32,405 bases of DNA from Rhodothermales bacterium (GTDB lineage Bacteria; Bacteroidota; Rhodothermia; Rhodothermales; JAHQVL01). The stretch lies in assembly GCA_034439735.1 (NCBI GenBank), contig JAWXAX010000071.1:1-32405 (forward strand), written 5' to 3'. The position numbers were made by a program, and so were the translations under genes. Shown here piece by piece: positions 7,604-31,188 of this stretch (position 1 is the first letter of the stretch; every line of letters begins with the position of its first letter). The notes beneath the pieces are model-generated. The model saw only the letters and a program-made list of their open reading frames with translations. It did no database searches and had not been told where the DNA came from.

Positions 7604-9532
7604 TTAAACCTCGAACCTTGAACCCTTAAACGCCAGCAGCCGCAATCCATTCAACGACACCAGCACGGTGCTGCCTTCGTGGCCTATGACGGCGAGGGGG
7701 AGGGGGAGGTTGACGGTGAGGATCGACACGATCATCACGACGATCATGAAGAGGGCAAAGCCGAGGTTGACGTAGAGCGTCTGCCGCGCCTTGCGGCTCA
7801 GTTCGACCATATAGGGTAAGAGGGTGAGGTCGTCGCCCATGAGGACGACGTCGGCCGTCTCCAGGGCGACATCGCTGCCAATAGCGCCCATGGCGATGCC
7901 CATCGACGCCTTTGCGAGCGCCGGCGCGTCGTTGACGCCGTCGCCCACCATGGCGACGGCCCCGTAGGTGCGCTGGAGTTCGTCCAACACCGCCATCTTT
8001 TCAGCCGGCAGCCGGCCGGCATACACGGCATCCACCCCCGCTTCCTTGCCGATGGCCTCGGCGACCGCCTGGTTGTCGCCGGTGATCATGGCGATGTGCT
8101 GGATGCCCAGCCGTTTCAGCGCCAGGATGGCCGCCGGCGCCTCCGGGCGCAGGGCGTCGGCAAAGGCGAGGACGCCCGCGATGTGTTCCGCTCCGTGGCC
8201 GGCACCGATGCCGACGAAGACGCTCGTTTTTCCCTCGGCTTCCAGCCGGTGGAGCGCCTCAATGGCCGCGGTCGATGGGCCGGCCTCTTCGAAAAAACGA
8301 GCGTTGCCGATACGCACGGTGTGCCCGTCCACGCGCCCACGGACTCCCATGCCGGCCACGGCCTCAAAGTGCTGTGGTATGGCGATGGGGATCTCCCGGT
8401 CGTTCGCGGCGCCCACGGTTGCCTGGGCGAGCGAGTGTTCGGACCCCGACTGGAGCGAGGCGGCGAGGGCCAGGAGCGCATTTTCATCGCCGGCCCAGGA
8501 CCCGTTTGCCGTCGGGAGGAGGACGATGTCGGTCACCGTGCGCCGGCCGATCGTAAGCGTTCCCGTCTTGTCGAACGCAATCGCCCGGATGTCCGCCCCG
8601 CGTTCGACGTAGACGCCGCCTTTAAACAGGATGCCGCGCCGGGCGGCGTTGCCGATCGCTGAGAGGATTGTCGCCGGCGTGCTGATGACGAGGGCGCAAG
8701 GGGATGCGGCCACCATGAGCGTCATGGCGCGATAAAAGGCGGGATCGAACGCCTCGCCGAGCACCAGGAGCGGGAACGCGATGGCAAGCCCCGTGAACAC
8801 GATCACCGCCATCGCATAATACTGCTCGGCCGTGTCGATGAAGCGCTGGGTCTGCGCCTTTTCGCCCTGGGCGACTTCCACGAGTTGGATGAGCTTCGCG
8901 ATGGTCGACTCCGCCGCCCGGCGCGTGACGCGGATTTCCAGCGAGCCGTTTTCGTTGAGCGTCCCGCCGAAGACCGTGTCGCCGGGCTTTTTGGGTATCG
9001 GGACGGATTCGCCCGTGAGTGAGGCCTGGTCTACCTTGCTGGCGCCGGCAACCACCTCGCCATCCAACGGCACGAGGTCGCCCGGCCGCACCTGGACGAG
9101 TTCGCCCACCTGGATCTCGCCGGCCGGCGCCTGGACCCATACGCCGTTCCGGGACACGCGCGCCTGCTGGGGGTTGAGCTTCATCAGCTCTCGAATGGCG
9201 TTTCGGCTCCGATCGATTGCAAAATGCTGAAGCGTGTTCGAGAGGGAAAAGAGGAAAAGCAGCATGGCCCCTTCGAACGGGGCGTCGACGAGCGCCGCGC
9301 CGATGGCGGCGAGCACCATCAGCAGATCGATGTCGATCCGCCACTCACGCAGGGCCGACAGGGCGCTACGGAGGCCCATATATCCACCCGATGTATACGA
9401 TATGGCGTATAACGAGGTCGCGAGCGCGGGTGATGCGTCTTGCCAGTGAGCGATGAGACCGGCCATCATGGACAAAAAAGCCAGCGCCGTGAGGCCTATC
9501 TCCAGTCTTCGCGTTTTGATCGGTTGTCCCAT
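7604..9532 (-). CDS. P1B-4-type heavy-metal ATPase
   Basis: A 642-residue P-type ATPase without an N-terminal metal-binding domain. Motifs in order are TGES (173-176), the transmembrane metal motif SPC (277-279), the phosphorylated aspartate in DKTGT (321-325), GDGVND in the hinge, and HEGST (618-622) in the last helix. SPC together with HEGS/HEGG defines the P1B-4 group, whose members export cobalt, ferrous iron or sometimes zinc. The metal here is not decidable. Six to eight membrane segments are visible, including the pair at about 12-60. The final residues after LNGLRLL are encoded by a repeat element whose edge supplies the stop codon. Upstream, 8 bases away, is a formylglycine-enzyme fragment, so the promoter is not obvious. 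Confidence 0.92.
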   Translation of the reverse strand: MGQPIKTRRLEIGLTALAFLSMMAGLIAHWQDASPALATSLYAISYTSGGYMGLRSALSALREWRIDIDLLMVLAAIGAALVDAPFEGAMLLFLFSLSNTLQHFAIDRSRNAIRELMKLNPQQARVSRNGVWVQAPAGEIQVGELVQVRPGDLVPLDGEVVAGASKVDQASLTGESVPIPKKPGDTVFGGTLNENGSLEIRVTRRAAESTIAKLIQLVEVAQGEKAQTQRFIDTAEQYYAMAVIVFTGLAIAFPLLVLGEAFDPAFYRAMTLMVAASPCALVISTPATILSAIGNAARRGILFKGGVYVERGADIRAIAFDKTGTLTIGRRTVTDIVLLPTANGSWAGDENALLALAASLQSGSEHSLAQATVGAANDREIPIAIPQHFEAVAGMGVRGRVDGHTVRIGNARFFEEAGPSTAAIEALHRLEAEGKTSVFVGIGAGHGAEHIAGVLAFADALRPEAPAAILALKRLGIQHIAMITGDNQAVAEAIGKEAGVDAVYAGRLPAEKMAVLDELQRTYGAVAMVGDGVNDAPALAKASMGIAMGAIGSDVALETADVVLMGDDLTLLPYMVELSRKARQTLYVNLGFALFMIVVMIVSILTVNLPLPLAVIGHEGSTVLVSLNGLRLLAFKGSRFEV

Positions 9533-13743: not shown

Positions 13744-14262
13744 GGCGGGTGCTAATTGTCTGACAGGTTGAGTGTGCGGAGTATCCGTCGCTGGCTCGGA
13801 AGGCGTGTCGGTTATGCTCTTCCATGGGGTTCTTTGTTGGTGTGGTGGATTTAGGTACACAATTCGAGGAAAACTACTTAATCAGCTGGGGCGTTACATT
13901 ACGACTGCGGTCCCTGTGTAGATATTATGTTATTATCACGTCCCCTCGATGGACAGCGCGCCTCTTGCGCGGCGAATAAACATGTACCCGCGCCGGCTTT
14001 TATCGAAACCGCCTCGTTTGTTTTGCCGGTTACCGTAGCTACGTCTTTCCCGGCATATCCCACCGGTGGCACGGAGTCTCTTACCACTCTATCGATGCTT
14101 CGCACGATAGTTCTTCGGGTATGAAGCTCTCCTGATCGGGTGATTGGCCCTATCGCCGATGCGCCCTGGCCGTTCCCGTTTTCGATCCCTGTCGGGTTCT
14201 GTGTATATTCCAGAGCCGGGCCGTGGACTTCCATGGGCTATTCATTATTCAGGAGAAGATTC
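13744..14262 (+). other. gap before the czc operon, probable promoter region
   Basis: This 519-base gap is less GC-rich than its left neighbour, with AT-rich patches such as TATTATGTTATTATCACG at 13922-13939. An imperfect inverted repeat, ATCGGGTGAT (14135-14144) with ATCGCCGAT (14152-14160), lies about 100 bases before the proposed czcC-like start and could bind a metal regulator or form a hairpin. Short open frames on both strands (for example 13927-14124) have no family look. The left edge of the metal-resistance block probably lies here. Confidence 0.35.
14251..14255 (+). promoter_or_regulatory. Shine-Dalgarno that suggests the czcC-like start
   Basis: AGGAG lies 7 bases before an in-frame GTG at 14263. 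It is one of few good ribosome sites in the window and the reason that start was chosen. A second strong match, AGGAGGT at 14370-14376, has no ATG, GTG or TTG behind it. Confidence 0.5.
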
Positions 14263-15738
14263 GTGGTCACGATTTATTACGCATCATGCTGGGCGCTGTG
14301 TCCTTCTTGGGTACAGGCCTGTAGGCGGAATTCCTCCCTTTTGTCTGCTTCCAGCGAACCACAGATCGCAGGAGGTCGACTCAAACGATCCACCGCAACC
14401 GCCCCGCGCCGCCGAGGAAAGCTTTTTGGGCTCGCCGCGTTAACTTTTTTGGTCGTTACTTCGGCGGCATCCCTGGCGCAAGGGAGCACGCAACTCGTCT
14501 ACCAGGTTTCGGATTTCGATGTGTTGGTGGCGGGAGCTAACACATCCCATTCCTCACGTCCAATAGCCTCCGGGGTAGACACGCTGACGTACGAAACGGC
14601 GCTCGGAAAGGCTCTGGCGTCTAATCCGCGCCTTCGCGCGGCAGCGCTCGAGATTGAAGCGCGTCGCGCCCTAACTCGGCAAGCGAATCGAATATCCAAT
14701 CCGTTTCTGGATGCAGAGGCCGAAAACGTGTCGTCCAATGGTCCCGAGGAAGCGATTACGACGGCCATGCTCGGTCAGCTGGTCGAGCTTGGCGGCGATC
14801 GCCTGGCGCGGCACCGCCTGGCGCGGAGCGAAGCAAATCGCGCGGTTGTAGATGCGGCCATTGAAGCACTCTTTATTCGAGGAATCACCCGCGCTCGTTT
14901 TGCCGAGGCCTCGGCGGCGCAGGCACAAAGCCGGCTTTCCCGAACCCTGCGAGCGCTGGCCGATACGATCCTGGCGGCTACGAGGGAGCAGGTAGTCGCA
15001 GGCGACCGTTCGCCGATCGATCAAACCCGCGCGGAGATTTTACTCGCGGAAGCCCGTACCGAGGTCGACAAGGCGGATGCTGAACAAGGGGCGGCCTATG
15101 CGCGTCTGGCCGCCGTGTGGGGCGCCACACCCGATTTCGAAGCGGTGGCGCCGCTGCCGACGCCCAAACCCATCCCGCCCCTCGATTCGCTCCTGGCCGC
15201 GCTTCCACAAAGTGCGTCGATGGCCGTCTGGGAAGTTGAGGCGGAACGGAGAGCGGCGAATCTGCGACTCGAACAGGCGCGTCGCATACCAGATATCACG
15301 CTCACTGCCGGATATCGGCGCTTCACCGAGACGGGAGATGGAGCCTTAGTCGGCCGTTTGAACCTTCCGATTCCGCTATTTAACCGCAATCAGGGAGGCG
15401 TGGACGCCGCGCGTTTCCGGCTTCTGGCCGTCGAGGCGGATCAAGCGGCGGCCGTCTCGGAAATGCGCGCGGTATTGGCCGAAAGGTATGCCGCCATCAC
15501 GTCCGCGTACACCGAAGCCGAGGCGCTCCGAATCGAGGTGATTCCGCGCGCCACGGAAGTAACCGAGCGCATCGAAGAAGGTTATCGCGCGGGACGGTTC
15601 TCGTTGCTCGATTTACTCGATGCGCAGCGCACCCTGACGGCCGCCAGCGCACGCTATCAGGAGGCCCTCGCGCGGTATTACATCACGGCGGCCGACATTG
15701 AGCAGCTTACGTCACGCCCCCTAGAACCGATCGAATAG
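14263..15738 (+). CDS. czcC: outer-membrane efflux protein (CzcC/TolC type)
   Basis: The protein is a TolC-fold channel subunit of an RND efflux complex. After a signal-like helix (KLFGLAALTFLVVTSAASLAQ, about 60 residues from the chosen start) come two OEP repeats. The first starts DTLTYETALGKALASNPRLRAA, with LVELGGDRLARHRLAR. The second shows RIPDITLTAGYRRFTETGDGALVGRLNLPIPLFNRNQG and ends with AGRFSLLDLLDAQRTL, the typical late coiled-coil tip. The start is uncertain: GTG 14263 has a ribosome site but leaves a long N-terminal extension before the signal peptide, whereas a rare start near 14340-14390 would fit the family better. It is the first gene of czcCBA, 5 bases before the adaptor gene. 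Confidence 0.88.
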   Translation: MVTIYYASCWALCPSWVQACRRNSSLLSASSEPQIAGGRLKRSTATAPRRRGKLFGLAALTFLVVTSAASLAQGSTQLVYQVSDFDVLVAGANTSHSSRPIASGVDTLTYETALGKALASNPRLRAAALEIEARRALTRQANRISNPFLDAEAENVSSNGPEEAITTAMLGQLVELGGDRLARHRLARSEANRAVVDAAIEALFIRGITRARFAEASAAQAQSRLSRTLRALADTILAATREQVVAGDRSPIDQTRAEILLAEARTEVDKADAEQGAAYARLAAVWGATPDFEAVAPLPTPKPIPPLDSLLAALPQSASMAVWEVEAERRAANLRLEQARRIPDITLTAGYRRFTETGDGALVGRLNLPIPLFNRNQGGVDAARFRLLAVEADQAAAVSEMRAVLAERYAAITSAYTEAEALRIEVIPRATEVTERIEEGYRAGRFSLLDLLDAQRTLTAASARYQEALARYYITAADIEQLTSRPLEPIE

Positions 15739-15743
15739 CGGCC

Positions 15744-20533
<4,790 letters not shown>

Positions 20534-20849: not shown

Positions 20850-21857
20850 ATGGAAACGAAGGCAGAAAATGTGTCACGTCGTGCCCCCGATAAGAAAAAT
20901 ACCCCCTCCTGGTCGCCATTAAAACGAGGCGAGCAGGTCGAGGTACGCGGCGCCGCAGAGATACTTGCGACCCTGGATGGCGAAGGAGTGCTCGATGATC
21001 TTCCTTTCATGCCGGAAATGATCCCGTTCATCGGTAAGCGGTTCACCGTTTCGAGGCGTATCGAGAAAACGTGTCTGGACTATCCTTCGCAAACATTCCG
21101 GCGTTTCCAACACAACGATGTTGTCTTCCTTGAGGCCTTGAGATGCTCCGGAGAAGCACATGGAGCGTGCCAGCGGGGGTGCATGATCTTCTGGAAGGAG
21201 GCCTGGCTACGAAGAGTTGATGACGCGGAAGAAACCGTTCGCGTCGAGCAACAGGACGCGCTCAGCATACTCGAATCCCGGCTAAAAACGCGCGCTCAGG
21301 GGGACGTCTTTATCTGTCAATCGTCAAGGCTCGAACGGGCTACGGAGCACATTCCGCCAGTAGACCGGGTTATGGTCAGCGTTACGGAAATCCGGAACGG
21401 CAACCGAAAGGTCTTCGAAGTACTGGGGATGTTCGTTCGCACGGCGTTCTGGAAGATGCGCGGTAAACTCCTGGGCACCCACCCCAAAGGAACGCTCGGA
21501 AAAACGCCTACGGAAGCCGTGAATCTGCAGCCAGGCGACTGGGTGGAGGTAAAATCGTACGAAGAAATTTACACAACTCTCGATGCCAGGGGCCGAAATC
21601 GAGGGATGAAATTCGATCTGGACATGCGCTTTTTTTGCGGGGAACGTCACCGGGTTTCGCGGCGCCTTGATCGCATGATTCGAGAAGACACCGGCGAGAT
21701 GCTTCACCCTCAAAATACAGTGCTACTCGACGGCGTAAACTGCCAGTGCATCTTTGCAACGGGCGGATGCCCCAGGGCGGAGGCTTTTTATTGGCGAGAA
21801 ATCTGGTTGAAACGGGTCGGCGACCTCCCCGGGCAAACAGACCACGACCGTTCCTGA
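20850..21857 (+). CDS. uncharacterised protein with two copies of a Cys/His-containing domain
   Basis: This 335-residue soluble protein (no signal or membrane helix) contains one domain twice. Copy 1 (about 26-123) runs RGEQVEVRGAAEILATLD, then FTVSRRIEKTC, VVFLEALRCSGEAHGACQ and WKEAWLRRV. Copy 2 (about 228-323) runs PGDWVEVKSYEEIYTTLD, HRVSRRLDRM, VLLDGVNCQC, GGCPRA and WREIWLKRV. Copy 1 has Cys75, Cys99, His104, Cys107 and Cys111, a plausible metal or iron-sulfur site. Copy 2 keeps Cys298 and Cys307 but lacks partners of Cys75 and Cys111. The linker (124-227) is basic. I have seen similar unnamed proteins in biosynthetic clusters but know no function. It lies between two metal pumps, convergent with cusA. 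Confidence 0.82.
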   Translation: METKAENVSRRAPDKKNTPSWSPLKRGEQVEVRGAAEILATLDGEGVLDDLPFMPEMIPFIGKRFTVSRRIEKTCLDYPSQTFRRFQHNDVVFLEALRCSGEAHGACQRGCMIFWKEAWLRRVDDAEETVRVEQQDALSILESRLKTRAQGDVFICQSSRLERATEHIPPVDRVMVSVTEIRNGNRKVFEVLGMFVRTAFWKMRGKLLGTHPKGTLGKTPTEAVNLQPGDWVEVKSYEEIYTTLDARGRNRGMKFDLDMRFFCGERHRVSRRLDRMIREDTGEMLHPQNTVLLDGVNCQCIFATGGCPRAEAFYWREIWLKRVGDLPGQTDHDRS

Positions 21858-21919: not shown

Positions 21920-24900
21920 TTAGCTGTTTCCCGGCGCGGGCGGTTGCCGCACGCTCGGGAGCGACCGCTGTTTCCACACAAAATAGATCGCCGGTATTAC
22001 AAGCAGCGTCAGCGCCGTCGACGAAATCATTCCTCCCACCATTGGAGCGGCGATGCGCTTCATCACCTCGGAGCCGGTGCCGATGCCCCACATGATGGGG
22101 AGCAAGCCGGCCATGTCCGCGACGACTGTCATCATTTTGGGCCGTATGCGCTCGGCGGCTCCGTGTAATACGGCTTCGTAGAGATCGGAAACCGTGTTCA
22201 TCGCACCCCGCGCGACGCGTTCTCTATAGGCCTGATCCAGATACACGAGCATGATGACCCCGGTCTCGGCCGCCACGCCCGCGAGGGCAATAAAACCCAC
22301 GCCAACGGCCACGCTCAGGTTATAGTCGAGCAAGTACACGAACCAGATCCCTCCGACCAGCGCAAACGGCAGGGAAAGCATGACGATCAGGCTCTCGCCG
22401 ATCCGCTTAAAACTCATATATAGCAGGGCGAAGATGATGAGCAACGTGAACGGGATCACGATCTGCAAGCGCTCTCGCGCGCGCACCATATACTCGTACT
22501 GCCCGCTCCATTCCAGGCTGTATCCGGCGGGCAGCGTCACGCCCTGCGAAACGGCCTCGCGCAAGCGGGCCACCAGCGAGCCAATGTCCGACTCGCGCGT
22601 ATCGACAAACACCCACGACGTACTGCGGGTATTCTCGCTTTTGATCGCCATGGGGCCCTTCTCGAACGAGTAGTCCACCACGTAACGTAGCGGGATCTGC
22701 GCGCCGGCCGGGGTGGGGATCAACACGCGATGCAAGGCGGTCAGGTTGTCGCGCAGCTCCCGGCTGTAGCGCACGCGCACGTTGTAGCGTTCGAGGCCCT
22801 CAACGGTCTGCGTCACCGTTATGCCGCCGATAGCCGTCTGTATCACGTCCTGGACGTCGCCCACGGTGAGGCCGTACCGCGCCGCCTCGTCGCGTTTAAT
22901 GCGGTAGTCCAGATAGTTGTCGCCGACGGTTTTCTCCGGGAACGCCGTCGCCACCCCGGGCACCGTCCGGGCGACGGCGGCGGCCCGTTCGCCGAGGTCG
23001 GCGAGAACCTCAAGATCTGGCCCCATAATTTTTATACCCACCGGCGTGCGGATGCCCGTGGAAAGCATATCGATGCGGGTTTTGATCGGCATCGTCCACG
23101 CGTTGGTGAGCCCTGGAATCACAATGGCGGCGTCCATCTCCTCCACGAGCCGCTCGACCGTCATCCTCTCGCGCCATTCGGACTCCGGTCGGAGTGTGAT
23201 GATCGTCTCCATCATCGAGAGCGGGGCCGCATCGGTGGCCGTTTCGGCGCGGCCGGCCTTGCCGAGCACATGGCTCACTTCCGGAAAGGCGCGGATGATC
23301 TGGTTGGTTTGCTGCAAAATCTCGCGGGCTTTGGCGACGCTCAGACCCGGATCGGTGGTAGGCATATACAGCAGATCGCCTTCGTTGAGGGGCGGCATGA
23401 ATTCCGAACCGAGCCGGAGTAGCGGATACGTGGTCAATCCGAGGGCAAGTAGGGCCAGGCCGATCGTCATCTTCCGGAAGCGGAGCACGAGGCGGATCGC
23501 CGGCGTGAAGAGCGCGATGAGCACCCGGTTGAGAGGATTTTTGTCTTCACGCGGGATCTTGCCGCGGATGAGGTACCCCATGAGGACGGGCACGACGGTC
23601 ACGGCGAGCAGGGCCGCCGCGGCCAATGCGTATGTTTTGGTATAGGCGAGTGGCTCGAAGAGGCGCCCCTCCTGGTCTTGCAAGCTGAAGACGGGCAGGA
23701 AGGAGAGCGTAAGTACGAGCAGGGAGAAAAAGAGGGCGGGGCCGACCTCACGCGAAGCGTCGAGGATGATGCGCCAGTGGTCTTTTTTTCCGGCGTCGCG
23801 CTCCAGGTGTTTGTGCGCGTTCTCCACCATGACCATGGCGGCATCCAGCATGGCGCCGATGGCGATCGCGATGCCGCTCAAGGACATGATGTTGGCGTTT
23901 AACCCCTGCGCGTTCATGATGAGAAAGGCCAACAACACCCCCATGGGTAGGGTAAAGATGGCGACGAGCGCGCTGCGCACGTGGAGCAGGAACACGATCG
24001 TGATCAGGGCGACGATCAGGCACTCCTCGATGAGCGTCCGCGTGACGTTGTCAATGGCGCGTTCGATGAGTCCCGAACGGTCGTACGCCGTATGAATCGT
24101 TACCCCCTCGGGAAGGCCGGCCTTCAGTTCCTCCAGCTTTTCCTTCACCGCTTCGATGGTAGCCAGCGCGTTTTCCTGGTAGCGCATGACGACGATGCCG
24201 CCCACCGTCTCGCCCTCGCCATTCCATTCCAGCACCCCGCGGCGGAGTTCGGGGCCGATGTGTACGTCGGCCACGTTCCGGATGAGCACCGGCGTACCGT
24301 TCCGGTCGGCGCCCAGGGGGACGTTTTCGATGTCCGCGATCGAGGCGAAGTAGCCCAGGCCTCGGACCATAAACTCCGTTTCGCCCAGCTCTACCACCCG
24401 TCCCCCGACATCGTTGTTGCTCCGCTTGAGCGCCGAGACCACCGTGGCGATCGGGATGTTGTAGGCCAGGAGCCGGTTTGGGTCCACATCTACCTGGTAC
24501 TCCTTCACAAAACCGCCGATGCTGGCCACTTCAGCGACGCCCGGCACACTGGTCAGCGGGTAACGCAGGTACCAGTCCTGAATCGAACGGAGCTGCTGAA
24601 GGTCGTACCGGTCGCCGCCGTCGAGCACATACTCGTACACCCAGCCGAGACCGGTGGCGTCGGGCCCAAGGGTGGGCGTTACACCGGCCGGCAGGCGATT
24701 GGAGGCGGTGTTCAGGTATTCGAGAACGCGGCTCCGTGCCCAATAGATATCCGTTCCATCTTCAAAAATGACATAGATGAACGATGAACCGAAGAACGAG
24801 TAACCGCGGACGACTCGGGCTTTGGGAACCGCCATCATGGCGGTCGTGAGCGGATAGGTGACCTGATCTTCGACGACGCGGGGCGCCTGGCCCGGGAATT

Positions 24901-25054
24901 CGGTGTACAGGATGACCTGGACGTCACTCAGATCCGGGATGGCGTCGACCGGTGTCCGCCACATCGCCATCGCGCCGGCGACAGCCAGGAGGAAGGCGAA
25001 AAGCAGCACCAGGACTCGGTGGGTGATGCAGGTTTCAATGAGGCGTTCGATCAT
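21920..25054 (-). CDS. cusA: RND pump, HME4 class (CusA type, copper/silver)
   Basis: A 1044-residue heavy-metal RND pump. The fourth helix reads AIAIGAMLDAAMVMVENAHK (397-415; Asp404, Glu411), the HME4 pattern of Cu(I)/Ag(I) exporters and different from the HME1 motif of czcA. Methionines used by CusA to relay Cu(I) have likely counterparts in EFMPPLNEGDLLYMPTTD, LSMMETIITLRPE and the strongly conserved RIDMLSTGIRTP. The N-terminal TPVDAIPDLSDVQVILYTEFPGQAP (34-58) is also CusA-like. It takes copper or silver from the periplasm or CusB and expels it through the outer-membrane channel. It is the last gene of the array, 42 bases after cusB, and converges with the Cys/His protein gene. Confidence 0.96.
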   Translation of the reverse strand: MIERLIETCITHRVLVLLFAFLLAVAGAMAMWRTPVDAIPDLSDVQVILYTEFPGQAPRVVEDQVTYPLTTAMMAVPKARVVRGYSFFGSSFIYVIFEDGTDIYWARSRVLEYLNTASNRLPAGVTPTLGPDATGLGWVYEYVLDGGDRYDLQQLRSIQDWYLRYPLTSVPGVAEVASIGGFVKEYQVDVDPNRLLAYNIPIATVVSALKRSNNDVGGRVVELGETEFMVRGLGYFASIADIENVPLGADRNGTPVLIRNVADVHIGPELRRGVLEWNGEGETVGGIVVMRYQENALATIEAVKEKLEELKAGLPEGVTIHTAYDRSGLIERAIDNVTRTLIEECLIVALITIVFLLHVRSALVAIFTLPMGVLLAFLIMNAQGLNANIMSLSGIAIAIGAMLDAAMVMVENAHKHLERDAGKKDHWRIILDASREVGPALFFSLLVLTLSFLPVFSLQDQEGRLFEPLAYTKTYALAAAALLAVTVVPVLMGYLIRGKIPREDKNPLNRVLIALFTPAIRLVLRFRKMTIGLALLALGLTTYPLLRLGSEFMPPLNEGDLLYMPTTDPGLSVAKAREILQQTNQIIRAFPEVSHVLGKAGRAETATDAAPLSMMETIITLRPESEWRERMTVERLVEEMDAAIVIPGLTNAWTMPIKTRIDMLSTGIRTPVGIKIMGPDLEVLADLGERAAAVARTVPGVATAFPEKTVGDNYLDYRIKRDEAARYGLTVGDVQDVIQTAIGGITVTQTVEGLERYNVRVRYSRELRDNLTALHRVLIPTPAGAQIPLRYVVDYSFEKGPMAIKSENTRSTSWVFVDTRESDIGSLVARLREAVSQGVTLPAGYSLEWSGQYEYMVRARERLQIVIPFTLLIIFALLYMSFKRIGESLIVMLSLPFALVGGIWFVYLLDYNLSVAVGVGFIALAGVAAETGVIMLVYLDQAYRERVARGAMNTVSDLYEAVLHGAAERIRPKMMTVVADMAGLLPIMWGIGTGSEVMKRIAAPMVGGMISSTALTLLVIPAIYFVWKQRSLPSVRQPPAPGNS

Positions 25055-25096
25055 GAGGGCAACGCAAACGCGCCGGATAGGCGGATAAAGCAGAAA

Positions 25097-26413
25097 TCAG
25101 TGCAGGTGCGAAGCGCCGGCATCGGTGGACGAGGCGGTGTCGCGCGGGGCCGATCGCAGGCGCGCGATGGCCTCTTGCAACCGGCTCTCGCTATCGAGCA
25201 GGAACTGCGCGGAGATGACGACTTCCTCACCCTCCACGAGGCCCGAAAGGACGCGGACGAGGGTGGGGTGGGCGTCACTTTCCTGGCCGAGTTCGACCTC
25301 GCGCGGCTCGAAACTCCCTACATCGCGCCGGACGAATGCGATGGCGCGTGCGCCGGAGCGCAGGATGGCCTCGGACGGCACGACAAGCGCATCGGGAATC
25401 GCGACGCCTTCGATCTGGACGTTGGCATACATGCCCGGCATTAGCGAGCGATCTGGATTGGGAACGACGATACGCACCTGGACGTCGCGGGCAACCTCAC
25501 CCAGGGTCGGATAGATGTAGGCGATGCGTCCCGGGTACGAGCGGCCGGGGAAGTAGGCCAGGGTGATCGCCACAGGCTGGCCCACGCGGATCCAGGGGAG
25601 TTCGTTTTCGAAGAGGCTGGCGTTTACCCACACGTCGCCGAGGTCGGCGATCTGGAAGAGATTGGCGCCGGCCTCGATGTAAGCCCCTTCCACTACGTTT
25701 TTCTCGATGACCACCCCGTCCGCCGCTGCGAGCAGGGGAAGGGTCTTTCGAACCTCTCCCGTCTCGGCGAGTCGATCGATATATTGAGAAGGGATGTCCC
25801 AGTATTCAAGTCGTTTGCGCGCCGAGGCGAGCAGCTGCGCGGCGTCCTGCCGGAGGTAGTCGGGCGCACCGACAGGCAACGCCCGTTCATGTTGCATTGC
25901 GAGAACGAACTCGTTCTGGGTAGCGACGAGTTCAGGGGAATACAGTTCGAGCAGCGGCCGGCCCTTCTCCATCTGCTCGCCAACGGACTCGACATGCAGG
26001 CGCTCGATCCAGCCCGATAGCTTGGTGGTTACCTGGTGGAGACCTTCCTGGTCGTATTCGACCGATCCAACGGCTCGAATCGTCCGTGAAAAGTCGGTAC
26101 GCGTCACGGTGACCGTCCGCACGTTCATGTTTTGAACGACTCGGGGATCGATCGAGACCAGCGTCCCCTCGGGTTGCTCCAACTCATCTTCGTAGACCGG
26201 GACGAGATCCATGCCCATCGTCGATTTGCCGGGGCCGTCGTAGAGGGTATTCGGGTCCATCGGATCCCACCAGTAGGCGATGGGCCGATCCGGCTCCGGG
26301 GCGGGAGGGCGGCTCGGTAGGATCATGGACTGGTGCCGCCCGAGTTGATAACCGGCGAACGCCAGGAGCAAGGCGGCAACCAGGGCGAGGACGATCGCGA
26401 GGGGCTTTTTCAT
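25097..26413 (-). CDS. cusB: RND periplasmic adaptor (CusB type)
   Basis: A 438-residue adaptor. Residues 1-25 anchor it to the membrane. Residues 45-75 carry the CusB-type heavy-metal-binding segment YWWDPMDPNTLYDGPGKS, followed by TMGMDLVPVYEDE. It has methionines and no cysteines, as in Escherichia coli CusB, and fits Cu(I) capture. The barrel-sandwich (LSGWIERLHVESVGEQMEKG and LLAAADGVVIEKNVVEGAYIEAG) and the beta-barrel (VWVNASLFENELPWIRVGQPVAI) follow. The C-terminal end is DAGASHLH. The gene overlaps the upstream channel gene by 4 bases, so the two are co-translated. Confidence 0.94.
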   Translation of the reverse strand: MKKPLAIVLALVAALLLAFAGYQLGRHQSMILPSRPPAPEPDRPIAYWWDPMDPNTLYDGPGKSTMGMDLVPVYEDELEQPEGTLVSIDPRVVQNMNVRTVTVTRTDFSRTIRAVGSVEYDQEGLHQVTTKLSGWIERLHVESVGEQMEKGRPLLELYSPELVATQNEFVLAMQHERALPVGAPDYLRQDAAQLLASARKRLEYWDIPSQYIDRLAETGEVRKTLPLLAAADGVVIEKNVVEGAYIEAGANLFQIADLGDVWVNASLFENELPWIRVGQPVAITLAYFPGRSYPGRIAYIYPTLGEVARDVQVRIVVPNPDRSLMPGMYANVQIEGVAIPDALVVPSEAILRSGARAIAFVRRDVGSFEPREVELGQESDAHPTLVRVLSGLVEGEEVVISAQFLLDSESRLQEAIARLRSAPRDTASSTDAGASHLH

Positions 26414-27747
26414 GGGATGATACCGGAAAGCGGCGTACGACGGATCACCGCCGCGCGCGTTTCGAGGGAAACGGTTCCGAGGACGCGTTCGAGGACGGCA
26501 TACGCCAGGAGGTAGTCCACGAAGGTTTCTTCGTAGGTGACGCGAAGACCGAACGACGCACGTTCAGCTTCCAGGAGATCGAGAAACGAAGCACTGCCGG
26601 AGGAATACCCGGTTAGCGCGGCCTGCCGGGTAGCTTCGGCTTGCGGTAAAAGGGCATTACGCAGAAGCGCAAGCTGGTTGTTATGTTGCTCAATCTCATG
26701 CAAGGCCTCGTCGAGGTGGGTTTCGATCGCGATCGTCACGGCTTCCGCCTGTGCCCGAACACGGGAGCTTCCCAGCCGTGCTTCTTGCAGGCGAGCGCGA
26801 ATACGGCCGCGCTGGATCGGCAGGACAGCCGTGACGCCCAACTCAAGCGCATCCCTTCCCATGGCGCCCGGCGGGTCCGCCGCCGCCGCGATATCGAAAT
26901 AGGTGACGACGACGCCCAGTTCGGGCAGCGCCGTGCGTCGTGCGAGTTCGACGGCTTTGAGGGAACGTCGTTCGGCGGTTGCAATGGCGCCAACTTCGGG
27001 CCGCAGGGCACGAGCCAGCACAAGCAGGGAGTCCCTCGGCGGCAGGGGAGGAGGCGGATTCGGCTGGGCGGTCCCCTGTGGGGCGGCCGGGCTATTTGAG
27101 AGCCGGCGCAGGGTCTCGCGTGCGGCCAGCGCTTCGTGTTCCAGCGTGTAGCGGCGCGTGTTCAGCGACGCGCGCTCGAGTTGCGCCTGCAGGATGGCCT
27201 GTTGGGAGCCGCGGCCGGCTTCATACAGCGCGCGGGCCGTGCCCTCGAACGCCCGGAGACGGACCGTGAAGTCGTCGATAAGCGGGAGCAGCTGTTGCGT
27301 GCGATACAGGGTGAAGTAGGCGCGTTTCAGGTCCAGCCCGAGGTCGAGCGCCAGGGTCCGTGTCTCGTCGGCGGCAATGGAGGCCTCGAGATCGGCGAGA
27401 TCACCCAGCACCCGCCTCGTCCCGGGGTATGGCACCGCCTGTTCGATGCGCCACTGACTGCGCTGCGCGCCGTGCGCCGTCAGCATGGGGTAGGGCTGAT
27501 AGGCCACCATCGCCATGGGGTCCGGCCACGCTGTCACCTGGCGCCGGCGGGTGCCAAGCGCCTCGGTTTCGATCCAGTGGGCGGTTAATTCAGGATTGCC
27601 GGCTTCCAGGGCTCGAAGCAAATCGGCGAGATCCAGGACGGCCGAGGTATCGGCGGGCGGCTCTTGCGCCGTCAGAGAAGCGGGCGCAAGTAGGGCCCAT
27701 AGCGGCACGAGCCACCATAGGGAGGGGAAATAACGAGGCATGGCCAT
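26410..27747 (-). CDS. cusC: outer-membrane efflux protein (CusC/TolC type)
   Basis: A 445-residue channel protein with a signal peptide (about 1-28, ending LTAQ). The first OEP repeat begins LDLADLLRALEAGNPELTAHW and contains QAVPYPGTRRVLGDLA. The second has LARRTALPELGVVVTYFD and ends with the tip motif SGSASFLDLLEAERASFGLRVTYEETF. Residues 78-90 are methionine- and proline-rich (DPMAMVAYQPYPML), which occurs in CusC-type proteins of Bacteroidota. It would form the exit channel of the Cus complex. A proline run near residue 230 (PNPPPPLPPRD) links the repeats. Confidence 0.9.
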   Translation of the reverse strand: MAMPRYFPSLWWLVPLWALLAPASLTAQEPPADTSAVLDLADLLRALEAGNPELTAHWIETEALGTRRRQVTAWPDPMAMVAYQPYPMLTAHGAQRSQWRIEQAVPYPGTRRVLGDLADLEASIAADETRTLALDLGLDLKRAYFTLYRTQQLLPLIDDFTVRLRAFEGTARALYEAGRGSQQAILQAQLERASLNTRRYTLEHEALAARETLRRLSNSPAAPQGTAQPNPPPPLPPRDSLLVLARALRPEVGAIATAERRSLKAVELARRTALPELGVVVTYFDIAAAADPPGAMGRDALELGVTAVLPIQRGRIRARLQEARLGSSRVRAQAEAVTIAIETHLDEALHEIEQHNNQLALLRNALLPQAEATRQAALTGYSSGSASFLDLLEAERASFGLRVTYEETFVDYLLAYAVLERVLGTVSLETRAAVIRRTPLSGIIP

Positions 27748-28382: not shown

Positions 28383-29015
28383 TCAGGCCCGTGTGCCTTT
28401 TACGACCACAAACGCGCCCGTGCCGTAGCCATTCACCACCGGATCCGGGTGGTCCATGGTCTCGGCGTCTCGGAAGATCGTTTGAACAAACTGAAGCGGC
28501 GTGAAGCCGGCCGCAAACAGATGCCTGGCCACTTCATCGACCGCGTGGAAGTGCGCGTGCCGATAAAACAGGCTCTCGTTCTTCCGCAACTCGTACTCCT
28601 TACCCAACGAACTCGCACGATCGATAAATCCAACCACGATACAACCGCCCGGGCGAATCACCCGGTGCGCTTCCTGGAAAGCCTGGTCGATGTCCTCTAC
28701 AAAACAGATCGTCGTAACCATGAGGACACCGTCGAACGAGTGATCCGGGAAGGGGAGGGCCTCCGCGGTGCCATCCAGCACTTCGATACCACGTTCCAGG
28801 GCAATCGCCCGCATTGCCGGCGAGGGCTCCACCCCGAGTTGGATGCCCAGCGGCGCCGCGAACCGGCCGGTGCCGACGCCGACCTCGACAAACTCGCCCG
28901 TCGGGGGTAGCAATTCACGGACGGCTTCGATCTCCGAAGCATACGCGTAGGGGTGGGAAGTAAACCAGGCGTCGTACAGGGCGCTTCGCTGCTCAAACGG
29001 ATTTACATCTGGCAT
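28383..29015 (-). CDS. class-I SAM-dependent methyltransferase
   Basis: A 210-residue Rossmann methyltransferase. Motif I is VEVGVGTGRFAAPLG (43-57), the acidic post-I end is LGVEPSPAM (60-68), motif II-like ALPFPDHSFDGVLMVTTICFV spans 86-106, and RVIRPGGCIVVGFIDR spans 117-132. It belongs to a subgroup with FYRHAHFHAVDEVARHLFAAGF near 149-170. The substrate is unknown. No arsenite-methyltransferase cysteines are present, so an ArsM role is unlikely. It sits between copB and the cus genes in the same direction, which suggests a role in the metal response, but that is inference. Confidence 0.85.
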   Translation of the reverse strand: MPDVNPFEQRSALYDAWFTSHPYAYASEIEAVRELLPPTGEFVEVGVGTGRFAAPLGIQLGVEPSPAMRAIALERGIEVLDGTAEALPFPDHSFDGVLMVTTICFVEDIDQAFQEAHRVIRPGGCIVVGFIDRASSLGKEYELRKNESLFYRHAHFHAVDEVARHLFAAGFTPLQFVQTIFRDAETMDHPDPVVNGYGTGAFVVVKGTRA

Positions 29016-29038: not shown

Positions 29039-29119
29039 CTATTCAGGCTGAGAATGCCTTCGGTCGATCAGTGCGTTGACCAGAGAAGCGACTTCGGGCA
29101 GTCGTCGGGGCAAGGTCAT
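29039..29119 (-). CDS. possible 26-residue peptide coupled to copB
   Basis: The ATG overlaps the TGA stop of copB (ATGA), and the frame runs 26 codons (MTLPRRLPEVASLVNALIDR, then RHSQPE) to a TAG, ending 23 bases before the methyltransferase start. Coupled start and position argue for translation. There is no homology I can recall. It may instead be a relic of a larger gene or a leader that couples copB to the methyltransferase. Confidence 0.3.
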   Translation of the reverse strand: MTLPRRLPEVASLVNALIDRRHSQPE

Positions 29120-31188
29120 AGTTGCTCCCTTTTGAGAAGCTGAGCGTTGATCGCCACGACCACAGTACTCGCGGACATCAATACCGCGCCCACGGCCGGA
29201 GTGAGAAGGATACCCCACGGGGCAAGCACGCCAGCCGCCAGGGGAATGGCGAAGATGTTGTAACCCGCCGCCCACCAGAGGTTCTGGAGCATCTTCCGGT
29301 AGGTCGCGCGGGACAACGCGACGATCTTCGGGATGTCGCGCGGGTCGGATCGTACCAGCACGATGTGACCGGCCTCCACGGCGACATCGGTGCCGGCGCC
29401 GATCGCGATCCCGATATCGGCGGTGGCCAGGGCCGGGGCATCGTTCACGCCGTCACCCACCATCGCGACTTTCTTTCCCTGATTCTGCAGCTCGCGTACC
29501 TTGGCGGCCTTGTCCTCGGGCAGGACCTGCGCGAACACGGTGTCGATGCCCAGTTCAGCGGCGACGGCATCCGCGACGGCTTGTGCGTCACCGGTGAGCA
29601 TGGCCACTTCGATTCCTCGAGCGTGCAGCGCGCGAATAGCCTCGCGGCTCTCCTCGCGGATAGCGTCCGCTACGGCGAATACCGCCAGTGCCTTGCCGTC
29701 TCTGATCAGATAAATGGCGGCCTGCCCTCGGCTGGCCGCCGCGTCGGCGGCGGCGCGAAGCGTGTCCGACACCTGGGCGTTCTCTGCCTTGAGGAGCGCG
29801 GGGCCGCCCATATGATACTCAACGCCTTCGACCGATGCGGCAACACCCTTCCCGGTCACGGCCCGGAATCCGTCCGATGGCGGCACGTCGAGCGTGCGTT
29901 CTATCGCCGTCTTTACAATGCCACGAGCGATCGGGTGTTCGGACTCCGACTCCACTCCGGCCGCGATACGGAGCAAGTTCTCGTCGGACTCCCCGTCGGC
30001 CACCGACAGCTCTACCACTCGGAACTCTCCCAATGTGAGCGTTCCGGTCTTGTCGAAAATCACAGTATCCAGGTTTCTGGCTTCTTCCAGCCCGCGCCGA
30101 TCCCGCACGAGCAGGCCATTGCGCGCGCCCAGGGTCGTGGAGATGGCGACAACCAGCGGCACGGCCAGGCCGAGAGCGTGTGGACAGGCGATCACCAGGA
30201 CCGTCACCATACGAATGATGGAGAAGTCGATCGACGCACCGAGGAAATACCACACCACCCATGTGACCGCGCCGGCGACGATGGCCACCCCGGTCAGGGT
30301 CCTGGCCGCCCGGTCGGCCAGATGCTGGGCCCGGGATTTTGATGTTTGCGCGTCGGCCACGAGCCGCATAATGCCTGAAAGCTTGGTCTTTTCACCGGTG
30401 CCGGTGACCTGAATGCGCAGAGAACCCTCCCCATTGACGGTCGCGGCGATGACGGCGTCGCCCTCCCTCTTTTTTACCGGCCTGGACTCGCCAGTAATAA
30501 AGGCTTCGTTGAGATCGCTCGTCCCTTTCTGGACGAGGCCGTCCGCTGGCACGCTCTCGCCGGGGCGGACCAGCACGATATCACCCTCCCGCAGCTCGCT
30601 GACCGGGACGGTCTCTTCACCCTGCTCTGAGATTCGAGTCGCGGTGTCCGGGAGTAACTTCGCGAGTTCCTGGAGCGCACCCTGTGCCTGTGAGATCGAG
30701 CGCATCTCGATCCAGTGGCCCAGCAGCATGATGGTCACCAACGTGGCCAGCTCCCACCAGATGGCATCCGCTCGAAGGAAACCGAGCTGGACCACCCACG
30801 AGAAAAGGAAAGCTACCGAAATGGCGAGGGAGATGAGGGTCATCATCCCTGGCAGTCGCGCCTTCAGCTCGCGCCATGCTCCTTTCAGAAAGACCAGGCC
30901 GCCGTAGAAAAAGACGGCCGTGCCGAGGACAGGCGATATCCACGTAGATCCGGGGAACGCGGGCGCCTCGTAGTGAAAGATCATCTGGATATGCGCTGCC
31001 CAGAGGACGACCGGAACGGAGAGGAGCAGGGAGAGCCAGAACTTGTCACGAAACATCTCCGGGCTGTGACCTGCATGCTGGTCGTGGCTTTCATGACCTT
31101 CCGACGTCTTCTGGTGCCCGCCAGGCTCCTTGCCGCCGGCGGGCGGCGCGACGTGATGGCTATGATCGTGGTGGCTGTTTGGGTTCAT
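29116..31188 (-). CDS. copB: P1B-3 copper ATPase (CopB type)
   Basis: A 690-residue copper-exporting P-type ATPase. The N-terminal 45 residues are His-rich (SHHDHSHH, HESHDQHAGH), the usual metal-binding region of CopB. TGES is at 232-235 and the membrane metal motif CPH is at 335-337; CPH defines P1B-3 and goes with Cu(II), Cu(I) or Ag(I) export. DKTGT is at 379-383, and HP of the SEHPIARG nucleotide site and GDGVND are present. It moves copper from the cytoplasm to the periplasm, where the downstream Cus system can take over. A very good ribosome site precedes it. It is the first gene of the minus-strand array. Confidence 0.95.
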   Translation of the reverse strand: MNPNSHHDHSHHVAPPAGGKEPGGHQKTSEGHESHDQHAGHSPEMFRDKFWLSLLLSVPVVLWAAHIQMIFHYEAPAFPGSTWISPVLGTAVFFYGGLVFLKGAWRELKARLPGMMTLISLAISVAFLFSWVVQLGFLRADAIWWELATLVTIMLLGHWIEMRSISQAQGALQELAKLLPDTATRISEQGEETVPVSELREGDIVLVRPGESVPADGLVQKGTSDLNEAFITGESRPVKKREGDAVIAATVNGEGSLRIQVTGTGEKTKLSGIMRLVADAQTSKSRAQHLADRAARTLTGVAIVAGAVTWVVWYFLGASIDFSIIRMVTVLVIACPHALGLAVPLVVAISTTLGARNGLLVRDRRGLEEARNLDTVIFDKTGTLTLGEFRVVELSVADGESDENLLRIAAGVESESEHPIARGIVKTAIERTLDVPPSDGFRAVTGKGVAASVEGVEYHMGGPALLKAENAQVSDTLRAAADAAASRGQAAIYLIRDGKALAVFAVADAIREESREAIRALHARGIEVAMLTGDAQAVADAVAAELGIDTVFAQVLPEDKAAKVRELQNQGKKVAMVGDGVNDAPALATADIGIAIGAGTDVAVEAGHIVLVRSDPRDIPKIVALSRATYRKMLQNLWWAAGYNIFAIPLAAGVLAPWGILLTPAVGAVLMSASTVVVAINAQLLKREQL

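Follow-up and report, generated by a model that had tools for sequence, protein, structure and literature searches.

Introduction

The closest described match in fold to the protein analysed here is the Mind bomb repeat (Mib REP; PDB 4xi6, 4xi7 and 4tse), which is built of tandem SH3-like barrels, as is predicted for this protein. However, Mib REP are eukaryotic peptide-binding domains of a ubiquitin ligase, and no sequence relation to them was found. The nitrile hydratase beta subunit, the KOW-type ribosomal proteins uL24 and eL21, and CAP-Gly, all SH3-like barrels ranked by Foldseek and VIA-align, gave no sequence match either, and their functions are unlike one another. Kinship with nitrile hydratase was rejected, as fold similarity is its sole basis. 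A described protein that is linked through its operons is the DUF4910/DUF2172/HTH_47 protein (CA_C2195 family), a recurrent operon partner of the canonical sub-family described below; it is a different protein and not a homologue. In the structural paper on DUF4910, the synthesis of a modified cell-surface carbohydrate was independently proposed from the same type of neighbourhood (PMC4000134).

Here we analyse a cysteine-containing protein encoded in a stretch of 32,405 nucleotides (the window) from a Rhodothermales bacterium (contig JAWXAX010000071.1). Its gene lies between two metal-efflux systems, as the original prediction had noted (Table 1).

Table 1 Features of the window
Feature	Position	Strand	Basis and remarks
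P-type ATPase, flanking the two pumps	7604-9532	-	Pfam
Czc-type efflux genes (OEP/HlyD_D23/ACR_tran)	14140-20533	+	Pfam
Two-barrel Cys protein gene, whole (335 aa)	20850-21857	+	ORF; family alignments
Domain 1, SH3-like barrel (predicted), residues ~25-122	20922-21215	+	Alignments, models, fold comparison
Helical linker (predicted), residues ~134-203, invariant Cys156-Gln157	21249-21458	+	Model; conservation 47/47
Domain 2, SH3-like barrel (predicted), residues ~224-323	21519-21818	+	Model, fold comparison, alignments
Cus-type efflux genes (ACR_tran/HlyD_D23 with heavy metal binding domain, HMBD/OEP)	21920-27747	-	Pfam
P-type ATPase, flanking the two pumps	29116-31188	-	Pfam

Results

Internal duplication and predicted fold

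The open reading frame has no internal stop, and its product has no evident signal peptide or membrane segment; a promoter and terminator scan gave no signal above chance. The protein had been predicted to contain one ~98-residue domain twice, and we indeed observed that copy 1 aligned to copy 2 with a local score of 136 (BLOSUM62), against a mean of 25.4 (sd 4.3, maximum 47) in 1000 shuffles. The family profiles of the two domains matched each other in hhalign with a probability of 99.95% (E 2e-37), and copy 1 used as a query in its own genome retrieved copy 2 (E 2e-10). The internal duplication is real.

AlphaFold modelling with 28 sequences predicted two beta-barrels connected by a helical linker (pLDDT 86.7, pTM 0.84), and domain 1 modelled alone gave a pLDDT of 83.0 and a pTM of 0.75. 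The best structural neighbours of either domain were the Mind bomb repeats (domain 1, Z 7.3 over 70 residues at 2.2 Å; domain 2, Z 6.7), a match that lies below Z 8 and may reflect merely a common arrangement; the others were KOW-type ribosomal proteins, nitrile hydratase beta and CAP-Gly, all of them SH3-like. The models are confident and the neighbours consistent, yet Z is 7.3 at best and Foldseek returned no E-value at or below 0.001 for the barrel domains. Because the Z-scores are middling, we describe the predicted structure, two SH3-like barrels with a helical linker between them, as a fold class rather than as a claim of homology. The possibility that the domain is a known fold with another function was only half realized: the predicted SH3-like barrel is a known fold, but it dictates no function.

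An unnamed bacterial family

Searches of Pfam, NCBIfam and PDB sequences gave no credible match to the window protein, in line with the earlier statement that no family of known function comes to mind, and a literature search found nothing on the two-barrel Cys family. One scan of a species-representative genome collection returned 31 loci, from Acidobacteriota, Actinomycetota, Myxococcota, Pseudomonadota, Gemmatimonadota, Planctomycetota and others, and further relatives came from plasmid records (few) and genome searches (more). The phages and viral contigs searched contained no relatives, and thus nothing suggests a phage gene. The family occurs at a low, patchy prevalence: a match was obtained in 17 of the 396 genomes sampled from the phylum of the acidobacterial locus L004, in 3 of the 392 from that of the planctomycete locus and in 2 of the 369 from the class of the gammaproteobacterial locus. 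The starting genome is counted each time, and the query and threshold differed between searches.

The two-domain architecture, ~310-380 residues long, is general in the family. We aligned 31 sequences, after trimming of over-extended ORF starts (L006, L018 and others), and used a second set of 47 two-domain sequences. Shorter relatives with one barrel also exist (L032 7755-8288, L033 7755-8288, L034 7219-8285, L107 9491-10069 and L109 1741-2406); some have a CQ-like motif ahead of the barrel, and in most of them all four of the loop and strand-2 positions are Cys. In L034, two one-barrel genes stand in tandem, which is possibly a split or an ancestral arrangement. In a Caulobacterales MAG (L026 6768-8909), an FAD_binding_3 oxidoreductase precedes the family protein in an in-frame fusion. 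Judged by its sequence, the window protein is a divergent member of this unnamed and uncharacterised bacterial family, since it shares the two ~98-residue copies, the Cys-Gln linker that joins them, and the invariant Cys99, Cys107, Cys111 and Trp115.

Cysteine pattern of the two copies

We counted candidate ligands in the 47 two-domain sequences, which come from several phyla and include the window protein. The five copy-1 ligands named in the original prediction, Cys75, Cys99, His104, Cys107 and Cys111, are all present in the window protein, and the cysteines proved to be conserved in relatives: Cys99, Cys107, Cys111 and the linker Cys156 are found in 47/47 sequences, as is Trp115, while His104 is found in 44/47 and Cys75 in 42/47. 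That list had overlooked the linker Cys156-Gln157 and, in copy 2, Cys263. Cys occupies position 61 in 42 of 46 sequences, and the window protein has Ile there; the cysteine is also missing in L026, L092 and L096 and is common but not essential. By comparison with the family, window copy 1 has thus itself lost one cysteine. Cys61 and Cys75 are never both absent, although the cases are too few to carry meaning.

Domain 2 of the window protein contains Cys263, which corresponds to position 61 of copy 1, and Cys298 and Cys307, the equivalents of Cys99 and Cys107, with Glu311 at the fourth Cys position; copy 1 therefore has the fuller ligand set, as proposed. Cys298 and Cys307 occur in 45/47 sequences, both being absent from the two sister sequences L028 and L029, and Cys263 occurs in 39/47. 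The fourth Cys is missing from copy 2 in all sequences except those of a deep lineage (L102 8821-10260, L103 3902-4807 and L104 8739-11252), in which the pattern of the main lineage is reversed: the fourth Cys is present in domain 2, and Cys75 is absent from domain 1. Since both this sister lineage and the shorter relatives retain the fourth Cys in the copy-2 type of domain, its loss from copy 2 dates, on sequence comparison, from early in the main lineage, and copy 2 shows a conservation of its own. The proposal of duplication followed by ligand loss thus stands for the duplication and the inequality of the copies, but the pattern is old across phyla and is not a recent decay in this protein.

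The predicted secondary structure places Cys99 to Cys111 in the loop preceding the last strand, with Cys61 and Cys75 on either side of the strand-2 region. The cysteines are probably ligands of a structural metal, for example zinc. In barrel 1, loop Cys99, Cys107 and Cys111 together with the strand-2-region Cys61 or Cys75 would bind the metal, most likely Zn(II), and in barrel 2 the same would apply to Cys298, Cys307 and Cys263. An Fe-S cluster, or redox-active cysteines serving a redox step of sugar modification, could instead be considered from the four invariant cysteines (99, 107, 111 and 156), the in-frame oxidoreductase fusion in L026 and the fact that L028 and L029 have lost Cys298 together with Cys307. 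We consider this distinctly unlikely: the near-constant His104 and the spacing C-x4-H-x2-C-x3-C suit zinc better than a standard Fe-S motif, there is only the single fusion, and the joint loss is one event on the tree.

Relatives lie mostly among surface-polysaccharide genes

We examined the genome neighbourhoods of the relatives and found mostly surface-polysaccharide loci. At 23 of 46 loci, the flanks hold at least three genes of a recurrent sugar set consisting of NTP_transferase, PIG-L, NAD epimerase, C-methyltransferase (Methyltransf_13/14), DUF4910, RmlC and DRL_cat. The set recurs across several phyla (L010, L012, L014, L021, L023, L024, L027, L039 and others). The family gene often comes directly after DUF4910 or adjoins a flippase in these loci, each of the two being immediately adjacent in 9 of the 46. 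No checked genome has more than one DUF4910 gene, and in 5/5 genomes with a full copy it adjoins the family gene, so that linkage by chance is not plausible. Many of the remaining relatives lie in other polysaccharide contexts, which include a flippase at L093, a sugar transferase and a glycosyltransferase at L097, and a polysaccharide deacetylase at L099; FemAB/GNAT genes adjoin L022, L103 and L107, and Wzz adjoins L068. Some relatives stand alone (L094, L098, L101, L116 and L117). The family is thus linked recurrently to nucleotide-sugar and polysaccharide-assembly genes.

An alternative reading is that the protein is itself a glycan-modification enzyme, with the W-R/K-E-x-W-L and N-R-G motifs forming the active site and the cysteines being structural. 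The genes do sit inside biosynthetic operons, and polar residues are strongly conserved in both copies (Glu37, Asp43, Glu56, Glu117, Asn250, Arg251, Arg316 and Glu317). We nevertheless find this explanation unlikely, as most of these residues are found in both copies and resemble signatures of the fold, nothing points to a pocket or an enzyme fold, and the nearest folds are binding domains and ribosomal proteins.

The metal pumps of the window

The contig is a sizeable metal-resistance region with two pumps and two P-type ATPases. A SAM methyltransferase gene (28383-29015) lies between the Cus genes and one of the ATPases. The surroundings of the window gene are metal efflux and other genes: it does not belong to an NTP_transferase/PIG-L/epimerase/C-methyltransferase/DUF4910 gene set, the window holds no sugar cluster, and its genome has no DUF4910 gene at E 1e-10.

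This placement had hinted at a function with the pumps, and together with the pump-proximal L030 and L095 and the conserved cysteines it would suit a cytoplasmic metal sensor, buffer or chaperone of the metal-resistance island. Copy 1 would then bind Cu(I), Zn(II) or Cd(II), and copy 2 would report the metal or pass it on to Czc/Cus. However, the gene forms a separate unit, starting 316 bases after Czc and convergent with Cus, and these cysteines are just as invariant in relatives from polysaccharide loci that have no pumps. A conserved HME-RND linkage, as expected of a Czc/Cus component, was not seen among the relatives: only 3 of 47 family members are near metal pumps, namely the window gene, L030 (directly upstream of HlyD_D23 and ACR_tran genes) and L095 (within 10 kb of CusC/B/A-like genes, beside a response regulator, a histidine kinase and a PepSY_TM gene). 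The three sit on separate branches and the tree needs three separate changes, so that the tree does not support a single origin of metal-linked members. Two more relatives from the order of L095 have neither pumps nor sugar genes nearby. With 5-7 RND matches in each of these genomes, chance would be expected to yield such neighbours at a rate of some per cent; two chance pump neighbours among ~16 deep members would be mildly unlikely, although the pattern was picked after the fact. We regard the sensor, buffer or chaperone role as distinctly unlikely. Because the relatives lie mostly among surface-sugar genes, the pumps next door are probably coincidental.

Origin of the window copy

The window gene has a GC content of 55.7%, against 61.7% for the contig. 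A search of 60 near genomes matched only the source itself, and on the tree the window protein falls outside the canonical clade of 30 sequences, a placement that is unsure owing to its long branch. The low GC content, the absence from the near genomes searched and the long branch suggest that the gene was acquired horizontally. A decayed second copy is present in the same genome (L002 1252-1826; contig C217, about 21928-22214). In it, the start of domain 1 is closely followed by the final ~20 residues of a domain 2, read in a different frame, after which comes a short-unit repeat resembling (ATTAGCG)n.

Discussion

Taken together, we tentatively favour, at somewhat less than even confidence, the reading that the window protein is a divergent, probably horizontally acquired, metal-holding tandem-barrel adaptor of surface-glycan assembly. 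The rigid tandem barrels would dock enzymes that make or export a modified surface glycan, although an adaptor is what one would assume by default of SH3-like barrels. The glycan role is uncertain for the window copy, since neither a sugar cluster nor a DUF4910 gene accompanies it; away from such a cluster, it may be a passenger in a metal-resistance contig or may serve a dispersed glycan pathway.

A further, combined reading is in our estimate very unlikely: that the family is a new kind of metal-loaded tandem-barrel protein needed to assemble a modified surface glycan, with one binding and one partner barrel, and that some deep members (the window gene, L030 and L095) were in addition reused in metal-resistance islands. 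If true, such reuse would link the make-up of envelope glycans to metal tolerance. The case also provides a caution that a metal-pump neighbourhood alone is a poor guide to function. The family is widespread and conserved, with invariant cysteines, and has had no Pfam or NCBIfam model. It adds a partner to the DUF4910 operons and, through its recurrent place beside DUF4910, a flippase and enzymes for nucleotide sugars, offers a defined target to the genetics of glycan assembly.
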